Assembly: GCF_900187405.1 (NCBI RefSeq)
Contig: NZ_LT896716.1
Span: 3,472,753-3,536,752, forward strand
From: Geobacter sp. DSM 9736
Lineage (GTDB): Bacteria; Desulfobacterota; Desulfuromonadia; Geobacterales; Geobacteraceae
Direction: 5' to 3'
DNA length: 64,000 bases
Position numbers and translations under genes: made by a program. The notes beneath the pieces were generated by a model that was given only the letters and a program-made list of their open reading frames with translations, was not told the origin of the DNA and made no database searches. Shown one piece after another: positions 18,905 through 31,500 of the stretch (the stretch's first letter is position 1; every line of letters begins with the position of its first letter).

Positions 18905-19019
18905 CTGTTCATCTTTTGGGGCATAGTCCGCAGTGTCATTATTTCTAATTAATGATATTGTTTTGTGGCAGGCTCCAAATGTAAATGAGTCACCGAGAAA
19001 CAGATCAAGAGGAGCTTTC

Positions 19020-22000
19020 ATGGACATACTGGACGCGGTACTGCGTTGGGGGAAAGTTGGAGGGGGGCTGCTGTCGGCGCTTCTGCTGTTGCCTGCTCTC
19101 GCTTCTGCCGAGCTTCGATGTTACGATTGCCACGGCACGCAAGAGACCCGCGATATCAGGCCATTTGATGCCCCTGTCCGTGATGTTTCCTCGGGAGGGT
19201 TTCCGGGTAATCACCGTACCCATCTTTCCGCTAACGCCACTCAAAGCGATTGCGCTCCCTGTCATCCGGGAAGCGCGGCCTTTCATGCCGGACACCGTGA
19301 TGGTCTTGTAAGTGTCTCCTCCCGGGTCAATTCGTCTCCCGCCGTGACCGCCTACAACAACGTGACCACGCCATTCCCTCAATATGCTGGAAATATCCCG
19401 GGAAGCTGCAGCAACGTGAACTGCCACTTTGAACAACCCACCCCCGACTGGGGCAGCTCCACCCTCGGCAGATCCGACTGTTCGGCCTGCCACGGCGCGC
19501 CGCCGTCTGATGGGAACCATCCGGCCCTTTCGGGGAGGGGAGGGAAGCACGGAGAGTATATCGGTACCGGTACGAACAGCTGCAGCGCATGTCACCGTGA
19601 CCATACCACCGATCCGGACCCTCTTGCCCATGCTCGGGAAGCCGGAAAGCGCCCCCTCAACGTGCAGTTCGCAACAGCCCCCAATAACGGCGGCAGCTAT
19701 TCGGGCAACCTCAACTATCCCAACTATCTGCCGAGCCAGAATCCGCTTCGCGACGGGATATGCAGCAATATCTACTGTCACAGCGACGGCCGAGGAGGAG
19801 CACCGACCATTAGCGTAAAATGGTCCGACGGCCCTGGCACCACGAAATGCTACTCCTGCCACAAAGGGACTCTGGCCAACAACAACCCCCAGGACTGCAG
19901 CGATGTTCCGGGAGCTGTATGGGACAGCGTCAAGGGGTACTGCACTCCATACATCAACATGACGACCAACGGGCACAGCAGGCTCGTCGGGCCGCAATGG
20001 ATCAGAAGGTATCCCTGCTACTACTGTCACAGCGGCACACTGGATGGATCCGGGGGCATCACCGACAAGAAGAAGCACGTTAACGGGACCAAGGATGTCG
20101 TCATGGCGCCCCAGTGGAACATTGTAGGGCGACCTGCGGCGAGCTACGACCCGGTCACAAAGAACTGCAACAACGTCTACTGTCACAGCGACGGCACCTC
20201 AAGCCCCGACACCGTGCGCCCCTTCGCCTGGACCACCCACGGCACCGATTGCAATACATGTCATGGCCACCCCCGTGGAAGCTGCAACGTTGCCGACTGC
20301 CATGACGGCCGTACCGATGCTACCGGGAAGACATGGGTCCTTCCCTCCACCTACGGCAACCGGACCTCGTACAAGTGGCCCCGCGGCCAGGAGTGGAAGG
20401 CGGCCATTCCGATGTTCCCCAACAAAGGACCCGGCGCGGCACGGGCAAACTCCCACAGCCGCCACACCGAAACGAACTTCACATGCGACCAGTGCCATGC
20501 ATCCACCATCGTTAACGGCACCTGCAATGATTGCCATGTGGATGGGATTCCTGCGGGAAGCATGGGGGAAGTAGCGCATCTGAACGCGGAGTTCCATGCC
20601 AACAAGGGTAAGGACGTCGTCTTCAAGAAAGGGGGGTCGTATAACCCTGTGACGAAGACATGCTCCAATACCGCCTGCCACACCGGCGGAACCGATCCGC
20701 AATGGGGTGGCTCCGTCAATGACTCGGTCATCTGCCTCAACTGCCACGGTACTACCGGTGCCGACGTGGATACATTCGGTTTCAGCATCTACAGCGCGGC
20801 TGCAAAGATAAACCTCACCCAGTGGGTCAATACCGGCCACGGACGGGCGGGCACTTCCGGCGCCTATCCGGCTTCGGGGAATCCTGCGGCAGGTTTTCCG
20901 GGCAACCCTTGCTGGTACTGTCACGACAACAACATCATTCACAACGACAGCGGTAATCCCTTCCGCCTGCGGCAGCATCTGCAGTTCGCCAACAGATTCG
21001 ACAAGGAATGCGTTTATTGCCACATGACGGGCAGCGACGCCGAATGCCTCGCATGCCACAATGCCGAGGAGTCGCTTGCACCGCAACTTTCGGCGTTGCC
21101 CGCCGACCCCGCTGCGGTCTGGCCTGACGGAAGCGCTGCGCCGCGTCCCGATCACACAATTATGGCGGACGGAAACACCTCATGCAGCACTGCCCCCTGC
21201 CACTTCGTTGATCCGGCCGATCCGACAAAAGATCTGAAGCGGCACAATGTCGGTGCGGGAATCTGGACTGATCGCCAGAAAGCGGATGTAAAGAACCAGT
21301 ACATGATGATGGGCGTCTGCCTCAAGTGCCACGACGACGATGCCGGCGGCAAGTGTACCAGCTGTCATACGCCCCCCGAGAGCAACCCACTCAAATACTC
21401 CCTCGGTTTCGACCCGGGCACCGGCTGGATAAAACCGCAGAAGGCGCGGGCATCCTCTTCCCATTTTGGGTACAAGCACTATGGCGCATTCATGGCCAGC
21501 GGCGGGTGGAACGGAAACGGCACATGGAAAGGGGGGAAATTCTGCTGGGACTGCCACGACCCCCATGGTGACGGGAATATCTACATGATCCAGAACCAGG
21601 TCGCGACTTCCACCGACGGCACGTTCGGTATCCCCAGATCCCGGGCTACGGTCGTGTTCACGCAGAAGCAGAGCGGTCTTGATTACGCGAAGATCAACGC
21701 TCCGTACAACGGCATCTGCAATGTCTGCCATTCCACGGGGAGTCAGCATTACCGGGCCGATGGCGGAGACGGCCACAATGCCGGGCGCGTCTGCACTTCA
21801 TGCCACGAGCACAGGTTCACCGACAGCCATGCCGACGGGCAGGCCTGCACTACCTGCCATCGCGACAAGCCGGTCCCGCGGCATTCCGGATTCGGCCTTC
21901 CACGTGACTGCACCAAGTGCCATACGGGCACCATCGGGCTGCGCATGGATGTCATGGGTCAGTTCAAGGGAACGTCGCATCACGTGCAGCTGCCGGATGG

Positions 22001-23609
22001 GCAGTTTGCAAACAACAAACACTGCTACGCCTGCCACTGGGAAGCTACACCCGAGGGGCTGATCGATATCCGCTACCACGAGGGGTACAACTACAAGAAC
22101 TATTCGACAGTGAAGAACGCGAAGGTGGACCTTGTGGTATGGAAGCCGGGTGCGCGTCCCACCTATCTGAACAGTACGACAGCCATACAGTTCATGGCCA
22201 GCAAGGTCGGGACTGCAGGCGAGCGGACTGAGGTAGCAAAACTCAACAACCACTGCCTCAGCTGCCACAACGACGACAACAATAACTCCCAGCCCTTCGG
22301 CGACTGCAAGACCCCGCGGCAGTACGCGTGGGACGGGCAGAGCGTAGCCGCGCGCTACTCCCAGACCGGAACCACGGCATGGGGCAAGTACAACTCCACC
22401 ACGTATCCGAATGCCAACCAGAAGGACAAGGTTGCCAAGTCTTTCTCTGCCCATGGGAATGCAGTGGGGAATGCGGGCGGATTCAGTATTGCCAACGGCG
22501 TCGATTCGGGCATTCCCAATACCCGCAACGGCAGCCAGAATGTCCAGTGCTTCGACTGTCATAGCTCACACGGCTCGAAGCTTGTAGGGGTGACTTCCAG
22601 CTACGTTACCTTCAACGGCTCCCGTAACGGCGGGAACCTTAAAGAGACACAGGCCGGAAAGGGTGGATACGCCATGAGCTACAAGGCATCCGCCAACACC
22701 GCCCAGGGCTCGCTCAACCCATACAATGCCGGGGCAGGCCAGTGTTTCGACTGTCACCTGAACCAGAACTCAGGGACCACGCCTTGGGGATACCAGTCCA
22801 CCTTCGGGGCCTCGGAAGCTATAAAGGGTTACTACGACGCGCCGAAGTTCATGTCCCCCGGCGCCGCTGTGCAGCAGAGGTTCCCATTGAAGGGGAGCCT
22901 GTCGACTAAGGGCGGCCACCTGAAAGCTTCCTCATTCCTCAACCATACCACCTCGGCCCACAACAGGATCAACGGACTCTGTACGCCTTGTCATGATCCC
23001 CATGGGGTGAGCCCGACGCTGGGGACAAAACAGCAGTATGCCGTGCCCCTCCTCAAGGGGACCTGGCTCACGGCTCCCTATCGTGAGGATGGGCCGAAGA
23101 TGAGCCTGGAAAATCCGCCCAGCGGCGCTCCCGATTCCAATCCGACCACCAACGTTCGCACCGATCAGCAGACCTTCGGGAACCTTGCAGTGAGTGAGGA
23201 CGACAGTACTTTCGCCGGCCTCTGTCTCCGATGCCACGCCAAGAGCAACCTGACCGACGGCGTGACCCACACCTGGAAGAGCCAGGACCGCATCCACGAA
23301 TCAGTCAAAGGATGGAAGACCGCCAATGGCACGATCCAGCACAACTATACATGCTCCAAGTGCCATACTCCCCACGCCAGTGCGCTGCCGCGCCTCATGA
23401 TCACCAACTGCCTCGACACTAAGCACCGCGGCGGCGGTGTCTCCGGCGGCCAGCCCGGTTCCGGCGGCCCGAGGAAATTTGAATACTGGGACGCGAATTA
23501 CGAGCCCCATTCCGGAAGCTTTCCCCGAGGTATTGACCAGAGTGGCGTCAACTGCCATCCCGGCGGAACCTGGCCCGACAACGGCTGGAACACCAAGACC
23601 CCATGGTAG
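19020..23609 (+). CDS. Giant exported multihaem c-type cytochrome (about 33 haem motifs)
   Basis: A 1,529-residue protein with a signal peptide (residues 1-30, ending PALASA). By eye I count 27 CX2CH and 6 CX4CH motifs (CSNVNCH, CSNIYCH, CNNVYCH, CNVADCH, CSNTACH, CSTAPCH), all in the first 1,500 residues. The mixture of CX4CH and CX2CH in repeated blocks is the signature of a Geobacter-type cytochrome family. Such proteins sit in the periplasm or on the outer surface and carry electrons to extracellular acceptors. The ATG at 19020 is chosen because AGAGGAG lies just upstream and the signal peptide begins there; the reading frame is open 29 codons earlier. It is followed after 11 bases by the propeller/FN3 gene, so the two form an operon. 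Confidence 0.92.
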   Translation: MDILDAVLRWGKVGGGLLSALLLLPALASAELRCYDCHGTQETRDIRPFDAPVRDVSSGGFPGNHRTHLSANATQSDCAPCHPGSAAFHAGHRDGLVSVSSRVNSSPAVTAYNNVTTPFPQYAGNIPGSCSNVNCHFEQPTPDWGSSTLGRSDCSACHGAPPSDGNHPALSGRGGKHGEYIGTGTNSCSACHRDHTTDPDPLAHAREAGKRPLNVQFATAPNNGGSYSGNLNYPNYLPSQNPLRDGICSNIYCHSDGRGGAPTISVKWSDGPGTTKCYSCHKGTLANNNPQDCSDVPGAVWDSVKGYCTPYINMTTNGHSRLVGPQWIRRYPCYYCHSGTLDGSGGITDKKKHVNGTKDVVMAPQWNIVGRPAASYDPVTKNCNNVYCHSDGTSSPDTVRPFAWTTHGTDCNTCHGHPRGSCNVADCHDGRTDATGKTWVLPSTYGNRTSYKWPRGQEWKAAIPMFPNKGPGAARANSHSRHTETNFTCDQCHASTIVNGTCNDCHVDGIPAGSMGEVAHLNAEFHANKGKDVVFKKGGSYNPVTKTCSNTACHTGGTDPQWGGSVNDSVICLNCHGTTGADVDTFGFSIYSAAAKINLTQWVNTGHGRAGTSGAYPASGNPAAGFPGNPCWYCHDNNIIHNDSGNPFRLRQHLQFANRFDKECVYCHMTGSDAECLACHNAEESLAPQLSALPADPAAVWPDGSAAPRPDHTIMADGNTSCSTAPCHFVDPADPTKDLKRHNVGAGIWTDRQKADVKNQYMMMGVCLKCHDDDAGGKCTSCHTPPESNPLKYSLGFDPGTGWIKPQKARASSSHFGYKHYGAFMASGGWNGNGTWKGGKFCWDCHDPHGDGNIYMIQNQVATSTDGTFGIPRSRATVVFTQKQSGLDYAKINAPYNGICNVCHSTGSQHYRADGGDGHNAGRVCTSCHEHRFTDSHADGQACTTCHRDKPVPRHSGFGLPRDCTKCHTGTIGLRMDVMGQFKGTSHHVQLPDGQFANNKHCYACHWEATPEGLIDIRYHEGYNYKNYSTVKNAKVDLVVWKPGARPTYLNSTTAIQFMASKVGTAGERTEVAKLNNHCLSCHNDDNNNSQPFGDCKTPRQYAWDGQSVAARYSQTGTTAWGKYNSTTYPNANQKDKVAKSFSAHGNAVGNAGGFSIANGVDSGIPNTRNGSQNVQCFDCHSSHGSKLVGVTSSYVTFNGSRNGGNLKETQAGKGGYAMSYKASANTAQGSLNPYNAGAGQCFDCHLNQNSGTTPWGYQSTFGASEAIKGYYDAPKFMSPGAAVQQRFPLKGSLSTKGGHLKASSFLNHTTSAHNRINGLCTPCHDPHGVSPTLGTKQQYAVPLLKGTWLTAPYREDGPKMSLENPPSGAPDSNPTTNVRTDQQTFGNLAVSEDDSTFAGLCLRCHAKSNLTDGVTHTWKSQDRIHESVKGWKTANGTIQHNYTCSKCHTPHASALPRLMITNCLDTKHRGGGVSGGQPGSGGPRKFEYWDANYEPHSGSFPRGIDQSGVNCHPGGTWPDNGWNTKTPW

Positions 23610-23620
23610 GAGGCCGAGTG

Positions 23621-26600
23621 ATGCTTAAATCAAATCCGTTCAAGGGAGAAGGTTCCATGGGGACTGTACGCGGAAACGCCATAAGTGGAGAACTGCAGGG
23701 GAGAAGGCGCGCCTGCAGAACTTTCCTGGGGCTGTTCCTGGGGATGACGTTGTTGCTGGGGCTTCAGGTGCAGGCTCATGCAGTCGGTGGAGACGTTGTG
23801 TGGCTCACCTCCGATTCCCAACCGGGGAAACAGGAACCGAAGCTGTCGGCTACGGACTCTCAGGGAAATGTCGTCCTGACCGGGCATCAGAACATGACGG
23901 GCGGGATAAATGACGACATGTACACCGTCAAGTTCAAGGCCGACGGAAGCGGAATTTCCTGGCGCGCCCTGGTGGACAGGACGGGTGGCGAGGACCGGGG
24001 ACTGGCCGTCACAGTCGACGGCAACGACGACGTCATTGTGACCGGGTATGTATGGAACGGTGTCAACCGGGACATACACACAATGAAATACAACGGCTCC
24101 ACCGGGGCCGTCATCTGGCAGCACACCGTGAACGGCTCCGCCAACGGCAGCGACATCGGCACCGCCGTGACGACCGACAGCCTCAACAACGTATATGTGG
24201 CGGCCAACTCCCAGAACTCCTCCGGAAACGACGACATCCTGGTGCTCAAATATGCACCGGGCGGCCCCTCGGGAGATTCCCCTCTCTGGACGGTTTCATA
24301 CAACGGAGCGGCAGACGGTCTGGATCAGGTGAATGCCATTGCGGCCGGAGTCGCCGGAGTCGTCGTCACGGGAAAATCATGGAACGCTGCTTCCTACGAC
24401 ATGGTGACGATCTCATACGGTTTCGACGGAGTGAAGGTTTGGGAGAAGCGTTATTCCACTGGGGGCGGCTCAAACAACGGGTGCATAGGGAACCAGGCCC
24501 GGTTCGACGGGAGTGGGAATGTAATTGCAGTGGGTTCTGTCGCCAACGGCAGCAATCTCGATATATATGTCGTCAAGTACAGTGCGGCCAATGGTAGCGT
24601 AATGTGGCAGAAGACTTACGACGGAGGCCTCGACGAGGAACCGCTGGGGCTCGCTGTCGATGCGGCAGGCGATGTTTACGTCACCGGCTACACTTACACC
24701 CTGACGGGTGCCAACGACTTTTTCTCCGCGAGATATGCAGGAGCGACCGGAACCACGGTCTGGCAGCAGTTGTACGATTCGGGCAACGGTAACACGGATA
24801 TGGCCGTCGCGACCGGTATCGTCGTTGATCCCGCAGGAGACGTATTCGTCACCGGTTACACTGTGACTGACGGAAACTATGATGTCCGGACGATAAAATA
24901 CAAGCGTGATACCGGCAACCTGCTATGGCAGAAGGCCTACAATGCTCCGGCCAACAAGAACGACAGGCCCGTTGGTATCGGCATCTCACCCTCCGGAGAT
25001 GTCCTCGTCGCCGGCTGGTCCGATTCCATGGCTAACGATCTCGATTTCATAATACTCAAGTACGACAGAGGCGTGCTCAATCCTGCCACAGGCTTGACGG
25101 CCACTGCTGTTTCCCCTACCAGCATCGCGCTTGCATGGTACGACAACTCATCCACCGAAGATGGATTCAAGATCGAGAGGAAGCTCGGCGAGACGGGGAG
25201 CTGGAGCCAGATCACGGTCGCTTCCGCAAATGCGACTTCATTCACCGATACCGGGCTTTCTCCCGATAATACATACTACTACCGGGTCAGATCGTACAAT
25301 GCAGCATCCGGTGACTCCTCCTACAGCAACGAAGCCCATGCACTCACGGTCTTCGTTACATTCACCGCACCCGCCTGGAGCTTCAGCTACAACAATCCGG
25401 ACAACACCGACGACTATGCCAATGCCATAGCCGTGGGTGCGGACAACAACCCTATCGTCACCGGCTACAGCAACCGCAACACGGGAACCTTCGACTACTT
25501 CACCGCCAAGCTCAACCGGGGAGACAGAAGTATCATCTGGAGTGATCAGTACGACGATCCCGACAGTGAAATGGATGAGGCGAAATGCCTGGCGGTGGAC
25601 AGCAACGGCAACGTCATCGTTTCCGGGGTTTCCCAGCTCTTTTACCCCCCTGCGCAGAGGAACATAAATTCGATCTACACCATAAAGTATCCTGCAGCCG
25701 GTCCCCCCGAAACCTGGCATGGCCAGTATAACGGTCCAGGCGCCATCGACGACCGGGCCACCGCAATCGCCACGACCGCGGACGGCGCCAACAACGTAGT
25801 GATCATCGGTTACGGAAAGAACGCTTCGAACAACGATGATGTCTATGTGATCAAGTACCCTGCAAATCCCGGATTCGACGTTCAGGGGGGTGCAATTCCG
25901 GCGTGGGCGGCCACACCTTTCGACGGGGGAGGGGACGACATACCGAGCGCCGTGGCTGTAGCTCCGGACGGCAGCGTCTACGTCACCGGAATCAGCGAGA
26001 AGACACCCGACTCCGACACCTATTTCTGGTTCACCGCCAAATATGACGGCTCCACCGGTGCTCTTGTCTGGGCCGACAGGTACAGCGTGGTTGCCGGAGG
26101 CGCGAACCGGGGAGCATCCATCGCCGTCGACGCCGACGGAGACGTTTACGTCACGGGCAGCGCTACAACGGCCACGCTCAGCAGGGATATCTATACCATC
26201 AAGTACTCCGGATCCAGTCCCACTGCCCGCAGGATCTGGGAGAGGGCAATCGATGGAGTTGCCGGCGGCGACGATGCCGGTGCCGATGTGGGGATCGACC
26301 GAATAGACGGCGCCATTCTCGTTGCGGGCACCACTCTTACTGCCTCAGGCGACCGCGATATTACCGTCGTCAGATATTCTTCCGGCGGCGACACTCTCTG
26401 GCGTCGAACTCTCCTGCGGGATGATTTGGACGATGCCGCCGTTGCCATGAAAGTCGATTCCTCCGGCTATATCTATATTGCGGGTACCACCGCAGCGGGT
26501 GCCGGCTCCGACATGATCTCCGTGATATACGATTACGAGGGGAATCTTCTTGGTGCCACGTCATACAACGGTCCGGCCAATGACATCGATGAAGCAAGTT

Positions 26601-29600
26601 CCATAACCGTCAACTACAAGGGAGAGGCCTTCGTTGCCGGATATTCACGAAACGCTTCCGGAAATGCCGATTATTCAGTAATAAAGCAGGTGAACAATTA
26701 TCTTCTGGTTCCCGCTCCTTTTACCGCTTCCGCCCAAGCAGATTCCTCCAAAATTGGTCTTTCCTGGGGCGATAACACTTCCGGAGCAAGCTATCTCCTG
26801 GAAAGAACGACCGGCCCCGTTACCGACCTGAGCATCTGGACGCAGATAGCAATGCCTGCTGCGGGAACGACTATGTTCCAGGATTCCGGCCTCGTTGCAA
26901 ACAGCCCTTACTGCTATCGCATAACAGCTATCAGCGGGAGCTTCTCTTCCCGAAAACTCATCAGCTGTGCTACGACGACTCCGGTCGCTCCCGTCCTGGG
27001 TCCACTGTCGCTGGTTTCAGCTACGGCTGTAGATGTGACCTGGAGCAACGTGGCGGGGAATACCGGCTACAAGCTGGAGCGGAGTCCGGACAACAACAGC
27101 TGGACTCAGATCGGCGGGAACCTTGCCGCCAATACCACAATCTATAATGACACCGGACTTGCCGCCGGCGCCGTACGGTATTACCGCGTCAGCGCCCTGA
27201 GCAATTCCGGCGCTTCCCTCACGAGCACAGTGCAGATAGCGCCGGTGCTGAATGCCCCCGGCGGAGTCACCGCCGCCAAGATCGATCTCTCCTGGCCTGC
27301 AGTCAGCGGGATCACCGGGTACATCCTGGAGCGAAGCACCGATAACCTGAACTGGACCCAGATCGCCACTCCCGCCGTGGGTACCACGGCATACTCCAAT
27401 ACTGGGCTTAATCCGGCCACGACATATTATTACAGGCTGAAGGTGACTTCCGCGGCGGGTACATCGACGCCGAGCCTCGTACAGTCCGCTACCACTGTTC
27501 TGGTGGCACCGACCGTAAGTCTTGCTGCCGGCACGACCACCACCCAGATCAATCTCTCCTGGACCGATGTGGCCGGGGAGGACAGCTACACCGTATGGGA
27601 GATGGCGTGTACGCAGAATATGTCATCCAGTGATATTTCGTACTGTGTTTCCTCTTACACCTATAACTGGGGAGCCGCCGTTCAGGTTGGCACGACCGGT
27701 CAGGGTGTGACCTCCTTCTCCCGGTCCGGCCTCATTCCCGGATACTCATACCAGTACTACGTTGTAGCCAGGACAGCGGGGGGTATCACCTCACCGGCAA
27801 GCAATGCCGTATTGGGCTGGACGGTACCGGCCGCACCGATTCTCAATGTCCCGACAGCACCATCGGATACATCCGTGAACTTGACGTGGAACGACGTTGC
27901 TGGCGAAAACGGTTATGTCATCGAGCGGAAGGTCGGCGCCGGCGCGTGGTCAACCCTTACCACTCTCACGCAGGGGAAAACTTCCCATACCGACACGACG
28001 ACTCCACAGACCCTCTACTCCTACAGGATCAGGGCTAAAGGAGCCGTGAACGGTGTCTACTCGGACTACAGTGCTGAACAGCCCATTACGACTCCCCCCA
28101 CCGGACCGGTGATTAGTTCCGTTACCGCCACGTCGTCTACCACCGCCACCTGGGGAGCCGTTTCCGGGGCGACGAGTTACGAGGTCAGGCGGAGCGTCTT
28201 CACGAACTACGACCGTCCTGACAGGGCGGGCGATCCCTACTATGCCTCCTACTGGAGTGCCTGGACAACGGTCACTACATCGGCTACCGGCACGAGTTAC
28301 CCCGATCCTGGTGTCTCCGCCGGATATACATACAAGTACTCGGTAAGGGCAAACATTTCAGGCAACTACACCGGTTGGGGAAGCGATGGCGGGAAATTCG
28401 CAACTACCATACCGGCCATACCGTCGAACTTTAGAGCTACCGGCAATTCAGCGACTCAGATAACGATGAACTGGAGTAACGTATATGGCGAGACCAACTA
28501 CAGCATTCGGTACAAGGCACGTTCCGCCGCTGACTGTGCTTCCGAGAGTTGGGCCACGGGGGTCTCGACTACTCCCGCTGTCGCCATGAACCTCACTTCC
28601 TACCAGATAGGCAGCCTCAATACGAACAGTGCGTACTGCTTCCAGATCAGGGCATACAACAGCGGAACCTCTGACTGGAGCGCGGCGACCACCTATCTTC
28701 CTCCGCCGACCCTCAGTGCTCTCAGCGGGATTACCCAGTCGTCCCTTACCCTCAGCTGGAGCGCGGTGCCTGGCAACACGGACTACCGGGTGGAGCGCAG
28801 TACCGATGGGGTTACATTTAACCTCCTTACTATAAAAGCTGCCGGTTCGACGGGGCATACGGATACGGGCCTTACCGCCGGGCAGGTATACTATTACCGG
28901 GTATTCACCGTCAACGGGTCCAACATCTCCGCACCGAGCGCCGTTCAGAGCGCGGCGACGCTCGTTCCTTCCGCACCCCTTCTCAATGCGCCTACGGGAG
29001 CGACTACATCGCAGCTGAGCCTTTCCTGGAATGATGTATCGGGTAACTACGGCTACAAACTGGAGCGGAGCATTGACAATGCAACCTGGACAGTAATAGC
29101 GAATCCGGTTCAGGGGGCTACCAGCTATACAAACACGGGGCTCAACTCCGGAACGATCTATTACTTCCGCATATCTACAAAAACAGCTTCCGGAAGCTAC
29201 TCTTCTCTCAGCAACGTCCAATCGGCGATGACGCTCCTGAGTGCACCGGTGCTTGCCCTCACCGGAAGTACCGCTGCAACGATAGAGATGAAATGGCAGT
29301 TCGTGTATGGTGCCACCAACTACCGCGTTCTCCGCTCCGAAGGCTCCAATGGACCTTGGAACGAGGTGAACAATATCGCTGCCGCCTATGCGGCATCCTA
29401 CTGCGGCTCTCCCATTCCCACAGTCGGCTGCCAGGCGCAGGCCCCTAACACAACCTTCTTTACAGATCAGGGCTTGACGGAGAACCTGACCTACTGTTAC
29501 CAGCTCAAGGCCTGGAATTCGACCGTCGGGAATTCGGACGCCAGTTCCACAGTCTGCCTCAAGACCCAGTCGGTGGGGGGACCCGTTTTGACCTCCGCGT

Positions 29601-29896
29601 CAGCCTCGAACTCGAAGATGATCCGGCTTGACTGGAGTTACGATCCCGGCAGCTGTATCCCGGTCGCCTGCGATGCTCCTGAGGGCTTCGAGATCTGGAA
29701 ACAGCTCTGGAATGGGGATTGGACGCTTCTCGACAGGGTTGGGAACGTCTCAACATATACCGATACACTGGTCGAGCCGGCAACGACGTACAGATACAAA
29801 GTAAGGGCCTTCAAGGCAACTGACATCTCTTCGTACAGCAATGTCCGAAGTGCCTTGACTCCTGTTTACAACAGCAGTGATTCGGCCTGCCCCTAG
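23621..29896 (+). CDS. Large exported beta-propeller and fibronectin type III repeat protein
   Basis: A 2,091-residue exported protein; the signal peptide's hydrophobic core is around residues 34-50. Residues about 55-480 and 585-1,030 carry SBBP-like propeller repeats (recurring VTGYxxxxxxDxxTxKY and DxxGDVYVTG units). About twelve FN3-like domains follow: one between the propeller blocks and eleven to the C-terminus, each with a conserved LSW/VTW and YYYRV signature. There is no haem motif and no obvious membrane anchor. The ATG at 23621 has TAGGAGG seven bases upstream, overlapping the cytochrome's stop; another possible start is 23657. Tight linkage to the giant cytochrome suggests a surface scaffold or adhesion partner. 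That role is inferred. Confidence 0.85.
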   Translation: MLKSNPFKGEGSMGTVRGNAISGELQGRRRACRTFLGLFLGMTLLLGLQVQAHAVGGDVVWLTSDSQPGKQEPKLSATDSQGNVVLTGHQNMTGGINDDMYTVKFKADGSGISWRALVDRTGGEDRGLAVTVDGNDDVIVTGYVWNGVNRDIHTMKYNGSTGAVIWQHTVNGSANGSDIGTAVTTDSLNNVYVAANSQNSSGNDDILVLKYAPGGPSGDSPLWTVSYNGAADGLDQVNAIAAGVAGVVVTGKSWNAASYDMVTISYGFDGVKVWEKRYSTGGGSNNGCIGNQARFDGSGNVIAVGSVANGSNLDIYVVKYSAANGSVMWQKTYDGGLDEEPLGLAVDAAGDVYVTGYTYTLTGANDFFSARYAGATGTTVWQQLYDSGNGNTDMAVATGIVVDPAGDVFVTGYTVTDGNYDVRTIKYKRDTGNLLWQKAYNAPANKNDRPVGIGISPSGDVLVAGWSDSMANDLDFIILKYDRGVLNPATGLTATAVSPTSIALAWYDNSSTEDGFKIERKLGETGSWSQITVASANATSFTDTGLSPDNTYYYRVRSYNAASGDSSYSNEAHALTVFVTFTAPAWSFSYNNPDNTDDYANAIAVGADNNPIVTGYSNRNTGTFDYFTAKLNRGDRSIIWSDQYDDPDSEMDEAKCLAVDSNGNVIVSGVSQLFYPPAQRNINSIYTIKYPAAGPPETWHGQYNGPGAIDDRATAIATTADGANNVVIIGYGKNASNNDDVYVIKYPANPGFDVQGGAIPAWAATPFDGGGDDIPSAVAVAPDGSVYVTGISEKTPDSDTYFWFTAKYDGSTGALVWADRYSVVAGGANRGASIAVDADGDVYVTGSATTATLSRDIYTIKYSGSSPTARRIWERAIDGVAGGDDAGADVGIDRIDGAILVAGTTLTASGDRDITVVRYSSGGDTLWRRTLLRDDLDDAAVAMKVDSSGYIYIAGTTAAGAGSDMISVIYDYEGNLLGATSYNGPANDIDEASSITVNYKGEAFVAGYSRNASGNADYSVIKQVNNYLLVPAPFTASAQADSSKIGLSWGDNTSGASYLLERTTGPVTDLSIWTQIAMPAAGTTMFQDSGLVANSPYCYRITAISGSFSSRKLISCATTTPVAPVLGPLSLVSATAVDVTWSNVAGNTGYKLERSPDNNSWTQIGGNLAANTTIYNDTGLAAGAVRYYRVSALSNSGASLTSTVQIAPVLNAPGGVTAAKIDLSWPAVSGITGYILERSTDNLNWTQIATPAVGTTAYSNTGLNPATTYYYRLKVTSAAGTSTPSLVQSATTVLVAPTVSLAAGTTTTQINLSWTDVAGEDSYTVWEMACTQNMSSSDISYCVSSYTYNWGAAVQVGTTGQGVTSFSRSGLIPGYSYQYYVVARTAGGITSPASNAVLGWTVPAAPILNVPTAPSDTSVNLTWNDVAGENGYVIERKVGAGAWSTLTTLTQGKTSHTDTTTPQTLYSYRIRAKGAVNGVYSDYSAEQPITTPPTGPVISSVTATSSTTATWGAVSGATSYEVRRSVFTNYDRPDRAGDPYYASYWSAWTTVTTSATGTSYPDPGVSAGYTYKYSVRANISGNYTGWGSDGGKFATTIPAIPSNFRATGNSATQITMNWSNVYGETNYSIRYKARSAADCASESWATGVSTTPAVAMNLTSYQIGSLNTNSAYCFQIRAYNSGTSDWSAATTYLPPPTLSALSGITQSSLTLSWSAVPGNTDYRVERSTDGVTFNLLTIKAAGSTGHTDTGLTAGQVYYYRVFTVNGSNISAPSAVQSAATLVPSAPLLNAPTGATTSQLSLSWNDVSGNYGYKLERSIDNATWTVIANPVQGATSYTNTGLNSGTIYYFRISTKTASGSYSSLSNVQSAMTLLSAPVLALTGSTAATIEMKWQFVYGATNYRVLRSEGSNGPWNEVNNIAAAYAASYCGSPIPTVGCQAQAPNTTFFTDQGLTENLTYCYQLKAWNSTVGNSDASSTVCLKTQSVGGPVLTSASASNSKMIRLDWSYDPGSCIPVACDAPEGFEIWKQLWNGDWTLLDRVGNVSTYTDTLVEPATTYRYKVRAFKATDISSYSNVRSALTPVYNSSDSACP

Positions 29897-29917: not shown

Positions 29918-29989
29918 ATGATGCTTCGGTGTCATGTGCTCCGCAATTTTTCCGCCATATCGGAGGCGAAGAGAGGAGGTGACATCCTC

Positions 29990-30052
29990 GTGAAAAAAAT
30001 GAGATACTCAAGGCCGAAGGTGGTCGGCAGCACGGCGGTCCACCCGTGCTGA
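29990..30052 (+). CDS. Candidate 20-residue precursor peptide next to a radical SAM enzyme
   Basis: A GTG-started ORF of 20 codons encoding MKKMRYSRPK VVGSTAVHPC, ending in TGA. Upstream is AGGAGGTGA (29974-29982), close to a perfect anti-Shine-Dalgarno match, with a 9-base gap from AGGAGGT to the GTG; that is stronger than for most genes here. The basic N-terminal half followed by a small, Gly/Ser/Thr core ending in His-Pro-Cys is the kind of layout seen in ribosomally made, radical-SAM-modified peptides. It lies 95 bases before a radical SAM gene on the same strand. An internal ATG (29999) is an alternative start. Too short for ORF callers. I do not recognise the sequence; coding status and function are inference. 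Confidence 0.55.
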   Translation: MKKMRYSRPKVVGSTAVHPC

Positions 30053-30064
30053 AGGAATGAACGG

Positions 30065-30093
30065 CGGGGCGGTGGACTCCTCCATCCGCCCCG
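30065..30093 (+). other. GC-rich hairpin between peptide ORF and radical SAM gene
   Basis: CGGGGCGG (30065-30072) pairs with CCGCCCCG (30086-30093), and TGGA with TCCA, leaving one bulged T and a CTCC loop. It starts 12 bases after the TGA at 30050-30052. No T-run follows. It could be a processing or attenuating hairpin that sets the peptide-to-enzyme ratio; a SECIS-like role is a weaker alternative. Confidence 0.5.
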
Positions 30094-30147
30094 GCTTCTT
30101 CGGGTCCGCTCGCCCAGGCAGTTACACCAGCAGGACGAAGGAAACAG

Positions 30148-31500
30148 ATGAACCGTGATGCAGAACTGATCCGGCAGACACTTATAGATTTCGAGAAGCA
30201 GCAGTATCCTGATATCTTGTCCGCCATTTCTCTTCCGGCGGCCACTCCTGCAGGTGGTTGCGGGCACAACACCATCTTCAGCAAGACTCCGCGCAAGATT
30301 GACTCCTACCAGTATCTTAGCACCATACGCCGCACCTCAGCCCACAATGCCTACTTCCACATACCCTTTTGCCGGAGCGAATGCCTCTACTGCTCTTTCG
30401 AAAGGATCGGCAACCATTCGGCGCACCAGATCGAGACCTACATTGAGGCAATGACGACGGAAATTGAGGGAAAACTGCAATACATTCCTGATTTCCGTCC
30501 GGACATCTTCTATATCGGCGGCGGAACTCCGACAATTCTTTCTCCTAGACTGATGGAGCGATTCCTCGGAATGCTGTCGGGCCGGTTTGACATAGGAAAA
30601 AACCTGGAATTCACCATTGAGACTACGCCACAGGCGGTCCTTGCGCCGGAGGGGGAGCAACTTCTCTTGATGTTCGCCGGGCATGGTGTGAACAGGATCA
30701 ACGTAGGGGTACAATCCTTTTCGCGTGACGTTGCCGCGAGAAACGGGCGACTACAGTCGGGAGACGATATCGTTCGCTGCTTTGCGAAGCTCAGAAGGCA
30801 CGGCTTTCAGAAGGTGAACCTCGATCTGATATACGGCTTGCCGGGTCAAACGCCGGAGGTGTGGTGCGAAGATCTGAGGCAGGCGGTGGACCTTCAGCCC
30901 GATTCGATCACCACCTTCTCGCTGCGGGTGCGGCCGCCGAGCAGGCTGCATCGTATGGTTACCCAGGGGGAGGCCGCGCTTCCGTCCGAGCACAGCCTGC
31001 TGCTGATGAGATTACTGGCGCAGCGCTTCCTTCCCCAGCATGGCTACGCAGAGGACAACTCGGATTACTTTATAAAGAGTCCGGACAAGCGTTATCTCTA
31101 CCAGCCGTTCCAGCCGCACAACGCCGACCGGAATCTCATCGGTTTCGGCTCTTCCGCCTACTCCCTCGCAGGGGATCGGCAGATATTCAATGTTTCCTCG
31201 ACCGTGGAATACCTTCGGCGTGCGAAGGAGGGAGGTGCCGCTGTGGAGTACGTGATAGAACTCGACAGGCCGGAGATGATGCGAAAGCGTCTTGCGGAGG
31301 GGCTCAGGACGGTTTTCGACGGGCGTGGGTTTCGGGAGGAATTCGGTCTCCCGGCGCGGGAGGCCTTGGGAGGGCAACTGGCGTCACTGCTGGATCTTGG
31401 CCTCATCCACGAAGAGGGGTACGATGTACGTCTCACCCCCAAAGGGAAAGTCATTCACGACCACGTTGCGGCTTACATCAAGTACCGGACGTCGGCCTGA
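30148..31500 (+). CDS. HemN/HemW-like radical SAM enzyme
   Basis: A 450-residue protein. The radical SAM cluster motif CRSECLYC (Cys75, 79, 82) lies in YFHIPFCRSECLYCSF, which is the HemN/HemW version. GGGTP and GLPGQT follow as SAM-binding elements, and the last 120 residues match a HemN C-terminal region (GFGSSAYS, winged-helix-like end). It carries a 65-residue N-terminal extension with a GGCGH stretch not usual for HemW. Family members include coproporphyrinogen oxidase, haem chaperones, methyltransferases and peptide-modifying enzymes. AAGGA precedes the ATG. The adjacent short peptide ORF suggests a peptide-modifying role; haem handling for the neighbouring giant cytochrome is the main alternative. 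Confidence 0.82.
   Translation: MNRDAELIRQTLIDFEKQQYPDILSAISLPAATPAGGCGHNTIFSKTPRKIDSYQYLSTIRRTSAHNAYFHIPFCRSECLYCSFERIGNHSAHQIETYIEAMTTEIEGKLQYIPDFRPDIFYIGGGTPTILSPRLMERFLGMLSGRFDIGKNLEFTIETTPQAVLAPEGEQLLLMFAGHGVNRINVGVQSFSRDVAARNGRLQSGDDIVRCFAKLRRHGFQKVNLDLIYGLPGQTPEVWCEDLRQAVDLQPDSITTFSLRVRPPSRLHRMVTQGEAALPSEHSLLLMRLLAQRFLPQHGYAEDNSDYFIKSPDKRYLYQPFQPHNADRNLIGFGSSAYSLAGDRQIFNVSSTVEYLRRAKEGGAAVEYVIELDRPEMMRKRLAEGLRTVFDGRGFREEFGLPAREALGGQLASLLDLGLIHEEGYDVRLTPKGKVIHDHVAAYIKYRTSA

Follow-up and report, generated by a model that had tools for sequence, protein, structure and literature searches.

A conserved 20-residue peptide encoded behind giant proteins of Geobacter sp. DSM 9736 as the probable substrate of the GeoRSP radical SAM/SPASM system

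A very short open reading frame lies between the gene of a giant repeat protein and a radical SAM gene in the window, by which we mean the whole stretch of 64,000 nucleotides of Geobacter sp. DSM 9736 DNA analysed here. A sequence-only reading of this stretch had taken the frame for the gene of a ribosomally made peptide that is modified by the adjacent enzyme. The questions that the locus raises are therefore whether the peptide is a real gene product and, if so, to which enzyme it belongs. The features needed for the argument are as follows.

18933..23609, forward strand: multiheme cytochrome of 1558 aa with 27 CxxCH motifs, a CxxxxCH/CxxCH domain and the tail ...GWNTKTPW (domain and tail searches)
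23603..29896, forward strand: fn3/SBBP (beta-propeller) repeat protein of 2097 aa with the tail ...ALTPVYNSSDSACP (domain and tail searches)
29974..29982, forward strand: Shine-Dalgarno sequence AGGAGGTGA, 7 nt ahead of the peptide start (sequence reading)
29990..30052, forward strand: precursor-like peptide of 20 aa, MKKMRYSRPKVVGSTAVHPC, with a GTG start (ORF translation, family search)
30065..30093, forward strand: GC-rich, terminator-like hairpin 3′ of the peptide with a poor T tail (fold z = -2.46 for 30053-30112)
30148..31500, forward strand: HemN-like radical SAM protein of 450 aa, judged to be outside the system (NCBIfam, PDB, genome and locus searches)

The peptide ORF runs from GTG at 29990 to TGA at 30052 and gives the translation originally proposed for it. 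The near-perfect Shine-Dalgarno sequence at good distance and the 95 nt between the peptide stop and the ATG (30148) of the same-strand radical SAM gene had also been read correctly. An in-frame upstream ATG at 29918 would give a longer ORF of 44 aa; the related copies start at the MKK position or near it. Translational control through a hairpin over the Shine-Dalgarno sequence, which had been suggested as well, was rejected: a fold is possible on paper, though without significance (z = -0.46), and the GAGG..CCTC pattern recurs in just 4 of 75 copies, the window copy counted. A promoter-like match at 29979-30008 (9/12, 0.1 expected) overlaps the Shine-Dalgarno sequence and the start of the ORF. 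The terminator scan returned no match at the hairpin 30065-30093.

The window peptide has no match in NCBIfam or Pfam, two of its relatives have none in NCBIfam, and tblastn against plasmids with the peptide gave nothing at E<=10. When the class was searched with the 20-residue query, 97 of 277 genomes matched at E<=0.5 with up to six copies per genome (four in the window's own), and every match among those listed reaches the last residue. The PKV...AVHPC pattern proposed for checking is conserved in relatives, and the suspicion of an undescribed system was right. The consensus of 76 distinct copies is MKKxxYxxP[KR][VI]VGSxxVHPC, of which the window copy is typical. Y, P, H, P and C are identical in 76 of 76, where it may be noted that the pattern used to collect the copies fixed the first P and the C but accepted other residues in place of Y, H and the second P; the G and the S that follows it are each present in 72 copies, and the V preceding HPC in 74. 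The copies come from loci found by likeness to the window peptide or taken around GeoRSP (see below), and divergent members were missed because the loci are similarity-based and the pattern fixes two residues. The conservation is far beyond chance. Judged by its codons, the family is protein-coding and an RNA element is excluded, because pS is 0.77 against a pN of 0.23 over 84 copies, the codons of the invariant residues vary freely (76 copies), and differences are concentrated at the third codon position (0.60, the other two giving 0.25 and 0.23; 84 copies). The last 15 residues are conserved as protein while synonymous change is free. A Shine-Dalgarno-like site, scored with a permissive pattern, precedes 71 of the 76 copies, and the peptide is evidently translated.

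The distribution of the family points to a partner. GeoRSP is an NCBI-named system that consists of a radical SAM/SPASM enzyme (TIGR04303), a PqqD-type chaperone (TIGR04302) and a SPASM protein (TIGR04304). TIGR04303 was found at E<=1e-80 in 84 of the 277 class genomes, 81 of them above the model cut-off. Peptide and enzyme occur together in 82 genomes, the peptide alone in 15, the enzyme alone in 2 and neither in 178 (Fisher p = 7e-52, without phylogenetic correction). Twelve of the 15 peptide-only genomes are at most 91% complete, two (G108 and G593) are 97% and 96% complete, and the match in G012 is a chance one that is gone when a profile of 12 peptides is used. A search of 390 genomes from the wider phylum gave TIGR04303 in 27, of which 16 lie outside the class (six of these 16 score slightly under the cut-off); the 12-peptide profile found the peptide in 15 of the 16, and at E<=0.1 in 0 of 30 class genomes that lack GeoRSP. 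Three genomes have GeoRSP with no peptide detected, namely G009 (L124), G103 (L125) and G317 (L249); the 12-peptide profile finds none in G009 or G103. The peptide family tracks GeoRSP across the phylum.

Gene order agrees with this assignment, and it is from operon position together with co-occurrence that we name GeoRSP as the partner enzyme. Several families of the class have a radical SAM gene before the peptide gene and a second gene after it. For two such loci the enzyme scores 447 and 449 bits with TIGR04303 (cut-off 400), the small protein upstream 100 and 85.4 bits with TIGR04302 (cut-off 100), and the gene after the peptide 99.3 and 80.5 bits with TIGR04304, which is below its cut-off. 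Of the 34 enzyme-centred loci examined (the 18 from the class were hand-picked from 84), 15 have the peptide gene on the enzyme's strand and no more than 180 nt downstream of it; by group, these are none of 9 loci from the window's order, 6 of 9 from the rest of the class and 9 of 16 from outside the class. Six further loci of the window's order had no adjacent peptide within 1.5-kb flanks; where a copy is in view in this order, it is about 7-9 kb from the enzyme. Counted by peptide, 14 of 75 copies stand directly behind the GeoRSP enzyme. In the window's genome (G000) the GeoRSP genes are at about C1:3200675-3202857, with the enzyme at C1:3200997-3201971 (TIGR04303, ~606.6 bits, cut-off 400), the PqqD-family chaperone at L123:4676-4990 (TIGR04302, 162.9 bits, cut-off 100) and the SPASM protein at L123:5980-6858 (TIGR04304, 297.6 bits against a cut-off of 300). 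They are 301 kb from the window peptide and about 9 kb from the nearest copy. The next-best models for GeoRSP enzymes are those of heme b synthase, mycofactocin and NirJ-type proteins. As to other neighbours, a YedE-type selenium/sulfur transporter motif is present by GeoRSP in 15 of the 18 class loci (L124, L125, L128 and L131-L142) and is accompanied by a small protein whose last residues are GGCE (in L125 it has no NCBIfam match), while a cysteine desulfurase motif is present in 8 of the 18; the YedE-type and desulfurase calls are motif-based and were confirmed by models in some loci. All three are absent beside the GeoRSP genes of the window's genome (L123). A PhnD-like binding protein is seen in some GeoRSP loci.

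About half of the copies that are away from the enzyme follow a giant ORF, and the window displays a full cassette of multiheme giant, fn3/SBBP giant and then peptide. The multiheme giant has a TIGR01904 cytochrome domain, and the fn3/SBBP giant ends in ...TPVYNSSDSACP, its stop being 93 nt from the peptide start. Both giants are probably exported, as their domains (c-type haem motifs, fn3 and SBBP) suggest. The multiheme gene overlaps the first ATG of the fn3/SBBP gene by 7 nt, and from their coordinates the two giants stand in this order in some further genomes with GeoRSP as well (G050, G096 and G009 among them). In 73 of 75 copies the peptide is preceded on the same strand by an ORF of 80 aa or more that ends no further than 400 nt upstream. 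Leaving aside the 14 copies behind the enzyme, 61 are left, of which 30 have a same-strand ORF of 900 aa or longer before them (35 one of at least 500 aa) and 31 have a shorter one or none, it being understood that upstream ORF lengths end at locus or contig ends and that some of the shorter ORFs are perhaps spurious. The 80 nt after the peptide stop hold an unusually stable fold in 62 of 75 copies (z scores from single-base shuffles), often a hairpin followed by a T tract. From these upstream and downstream counts, a common unit is a large protein, the peptide and a terminator-like hairpin. In five loci (L051, L054, L063, L096 and L128) the peptide is directly preceded by a third class of upstream protein, of about 220-300 aa and with a GRGP motif at its end; three of these loci are within about 9 kb of GeoRSP, and one of the proteins has a carboxypeptidase-regulatory-like domain.

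The giants carry two types of C-terminal tail, ...WNxxTPW in the multiheme proteins and ...TPx[YF]...C[PQR] in the fn3/SBBP proteins. For each tail, a profile of the last 75 residues was run against 30 GeoRSP-positive genomes and 30 that lack GeoRSP. An fn3-type tail that reaches the end of the profile was found in 15 of 30 positive against 0 of 30 negative genomes, the negatives giving internal matches only; the limit for reaching the end (at least 73 of 76 positions) was set after the matches were seen. For the WNxxTPW tail the figures at E<=1e-4 are 25 of 30 against 0 of 30, where several matches are near the limit (3e-5 to 5e-5) and the absence from the negatives is relative to that limit, since at this limit the profile misses the TPW tail of the window itself. 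On excluding the genomes that supplied the queries, 11 of 26 (fn3-type) and 22 of 27 (WNxxTPW) GeoRSP-positive genomes remain. An HPC peptide is encoded within 500 nt downstream of 5 of 11 fn3-type and 6 of 15 TPW-type genes checked, and one further tail-bearing gene is followed by a variant peptide ending in VHLC. With these proportions a strict pairing of one giant with one peptide fails; the remaining tailed genes may receive their peptide from elsewhere, or the tails may serve another part of the same system. Near-identical peptides, one with a VHLC and the other with a VHPC end, stand behind TPW-tailed genes of two genomes (L199 and L220). G009 has tailed giants despite no HPC peptide being detected in it.

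A conserved multi-copy family that tracks GeoRSP is probably the missing substrate of that system. Our main reading, to which we give a probability of about 0.82 from sequence comparison, is that the peptide is a GeoRSP precursor modified in trans. It has the features of a RiPP precursor, namely an encoded recognition-type half, a conserved core and linkage to a modifying enzyme. In the part of PMC13381572 that bears on it, recognition elements of the lasso and LPP kinds need the YxxP motif of the leader for binding, and a passage of PMC12710340 describes W/Y/LxxP/L/I motifs for groups of recognition elements including PqqD. The YxxP[KR][VI] of our peptide fits a motif of this type, GeoRSP supplies a PqqD protein, and the two would bind. 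We infer from these patterns that GeoRSP modifies the peptide, and likewise the residues concerned and the role of the product, as follows. The peptide would be made from the last cistron, downstream of those for two giants that are probably exported. The K-rich N-terminal half of the peptide, with YxxPK[VI]V, would be held by the PqqD-type chaperone, and the radical SAM/SPASM enzyme with its SPASM partner would modify the GSxxVHPC end, probably at His, Pro or Cys. The YedE-type and cysteine desulfurase motifs hint at a chemistry of sulfur or selenium at the terminal Cys, but this is a guess. The modified peptide or its core would then serve the giants, and its most likely place would be at their C-terminal tails (...WNxxTPW and ...TPx[YF]...C[PQR]), docked or joined there as a unit for assembly, anchoring or redox function. 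This role at the tails is held tentatively, at somewhat less than even odds. The fuller form of the proposal, in which one GeoRSP set matures many dispersed copies of 18-20 residues and the product, docked on or covalently joined to the tails, is a prosthetic or anchoring unit, is possible to the same degree and no further.

Two other destinations may be considered for a GeoRSP product. By analogy with the gamma subunit of quinohemoprotein amine dehydrogenase (QHNDH), it could serve a giant multiheme/SBBP complex as redox subunit or cofactor. The cassette of a multiheme giant, an fn3/SBBP giant and a radical-SAM-type peptide would suit such a complex, and in the account of QHNDH taken from part of PMC7876137 a diheme alpha subunit and a beta subunit go with a gamma subunit that is cross-linked by QhpD. 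Yet the peptide has 18-20 aa against about 9 kDa for the gamma subunit, no protease or ABC exporter was seen among the loci listed, and other protein types precede some of the peptide copies, so that we consider this destination rather unlikely. The product could also be a free secreted small molecule or peptide (a signal, a metal ligand or an antimicrobial), with the giants merely co-regulated. This would be the usual logic of a RiPP, some tail-bearing giants have no peptide, and the YedE-type (15/18) and cysteine desulfurase (8/18) motifs of the class enzyme-centred loci are in its favour. However, the tails of two unrelated giant families were found only with GeoRSP in the genomes searched, which suggests a direct link, and the core, nearly invariant and present in up to six copies per genome, does not resemble diversified antimicrobials. 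A secreted product is therefore given distinctly poor odds, about one chance in a handful.

The remaining two explanations do without GeoRSP. A short ORF with a strong Shine-Dalgarno sequence and a hairpin just downstream could be a regulatory leader peptide or attenuator, whose translation controls the hairpin and the gene after it. Attenuation of this kind was rejected as very improbable: the downstream genes vary in identity and strand, the last 15 residues are conserved at the protein level, and the family tracks GeoRSP. The other explanation is the pairing with the adjacent gene from which the analysis of this locus set out. The label HemN/HemW-like fits the neighbour, as its top NCBIfam scores are with STM4012, HutW and HemN (all far under their cut-offs) and its best PDB match is 1olt, HemN; about 65 N-terminal residues extend past the HemW matches. 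In a search of 147 related genomes that included its own, the neighbour's best matches apart from itself were HemW-like, with about 32% identity, and no ortholog was found among those relatives. Nothing at E<=1e-50 was found in 395 genomes of the phylum except in its own, a search of genome contigs returned no relative, and only relatives of about 26-30% identity are among the matches listed for a tblastn against plasmids. The gene was possibly acquired horizontally. HemN-like enzymes include methylases (class C). When the 93 other peptide or GeoRSP loci (1.17 Mb) were searched, the peptide was conserved and the neighbour was not, as no relative of the latter was found at E<=1e-5. What stands of the original proposal is thus a conserved peptide of the radical SAM substrate type with a leader-like half and an HPC end, and what falls is its partner enzyme. 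That the neighbour is the dedicated maturase of the peptide, for which its place on the same strand 95 nt away and the methyltransferase NocN among its PDB relatives could be cited, is the least probable of all the explanations and hardly credible in view of this distribution, of the hairpin that separates the two genes and of a peptide sequence that is typical of its family.

GeoRSP as the partner places the peptide among known systems. PqqA is a very short precursor, and the PqqA/PqqD/PqqE and mycofactocin systems likewise join such a precursor to a PqqD-type chaperone and a radical SAM/SPASM enzyme; they differ in that the GeoRSP-linked peptide occurs in up to six dispersed copies, many behind giants, and has no NCBIfam model match. 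With GeoRSP as named, the peptide shares its gene position between the radical SAM and SPASM genes in a part of the genomes and its co-occurrence across the phylum. However, NCBIfam models the three proteins but has no model that matches the peptide, and the dispersed copies behind giants and the tails of the giants are apparently outside the described system. The small gamma subunit QhpC of QHNDH, as given in a portion of PMC7876137, is cross-linked by the radical SAM enzyme QhpD and seated with the diheme subunit; it is a similar case of a small radical-SAM-modified polypeptide belonging with a c-type-heme protein. This is an analogy of architecture with no homology claimed, our peptide being far smaller, the giants having about 1500-2100 aa and the proposed enzyme acting in trans. 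The leaders of lasso peptides and LPP share the YxxPx[V/I] recognition-type motif, as far as that part of PMC13381572 describes it, but our peptide has a nearly fixed GSxxVHPC end and its enzyme would be a radical SAM/SPASM protein. In the PMC literature, a scope that leaves most subscription papers outside, we found no paper on GeoRSP in this sense or on TIGR04302, TIGR04303 or TIGR04304, and none that treats Geobacter, radical SAM, PqqD, peptide and cytochrome together. The GeoRSP name is known; within that scope the peptide family, its link to GeoRSP and the coupling to giant tailed proteins appear to be undescribed.

A tiny gene family can thus escape the libraries searched and yet be conserved, occur in several copies and go with an entire enzyme system, and an orphan radical SAM/SPASM system gains a concrete and testable candidate substrate. 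The association also ties GeoRSP to giant multiheme cytochromes, a kind of protein used for extracellular electron transfer. If the product is a prosthetic or anchoring unit, radical peptide chemistry would be connected in a new manner with how cell-surface redox proteins are assembled, and if the product is placed on the tails of the giants, this would be a new way to equip giant proteins for extracellular electron transfer.
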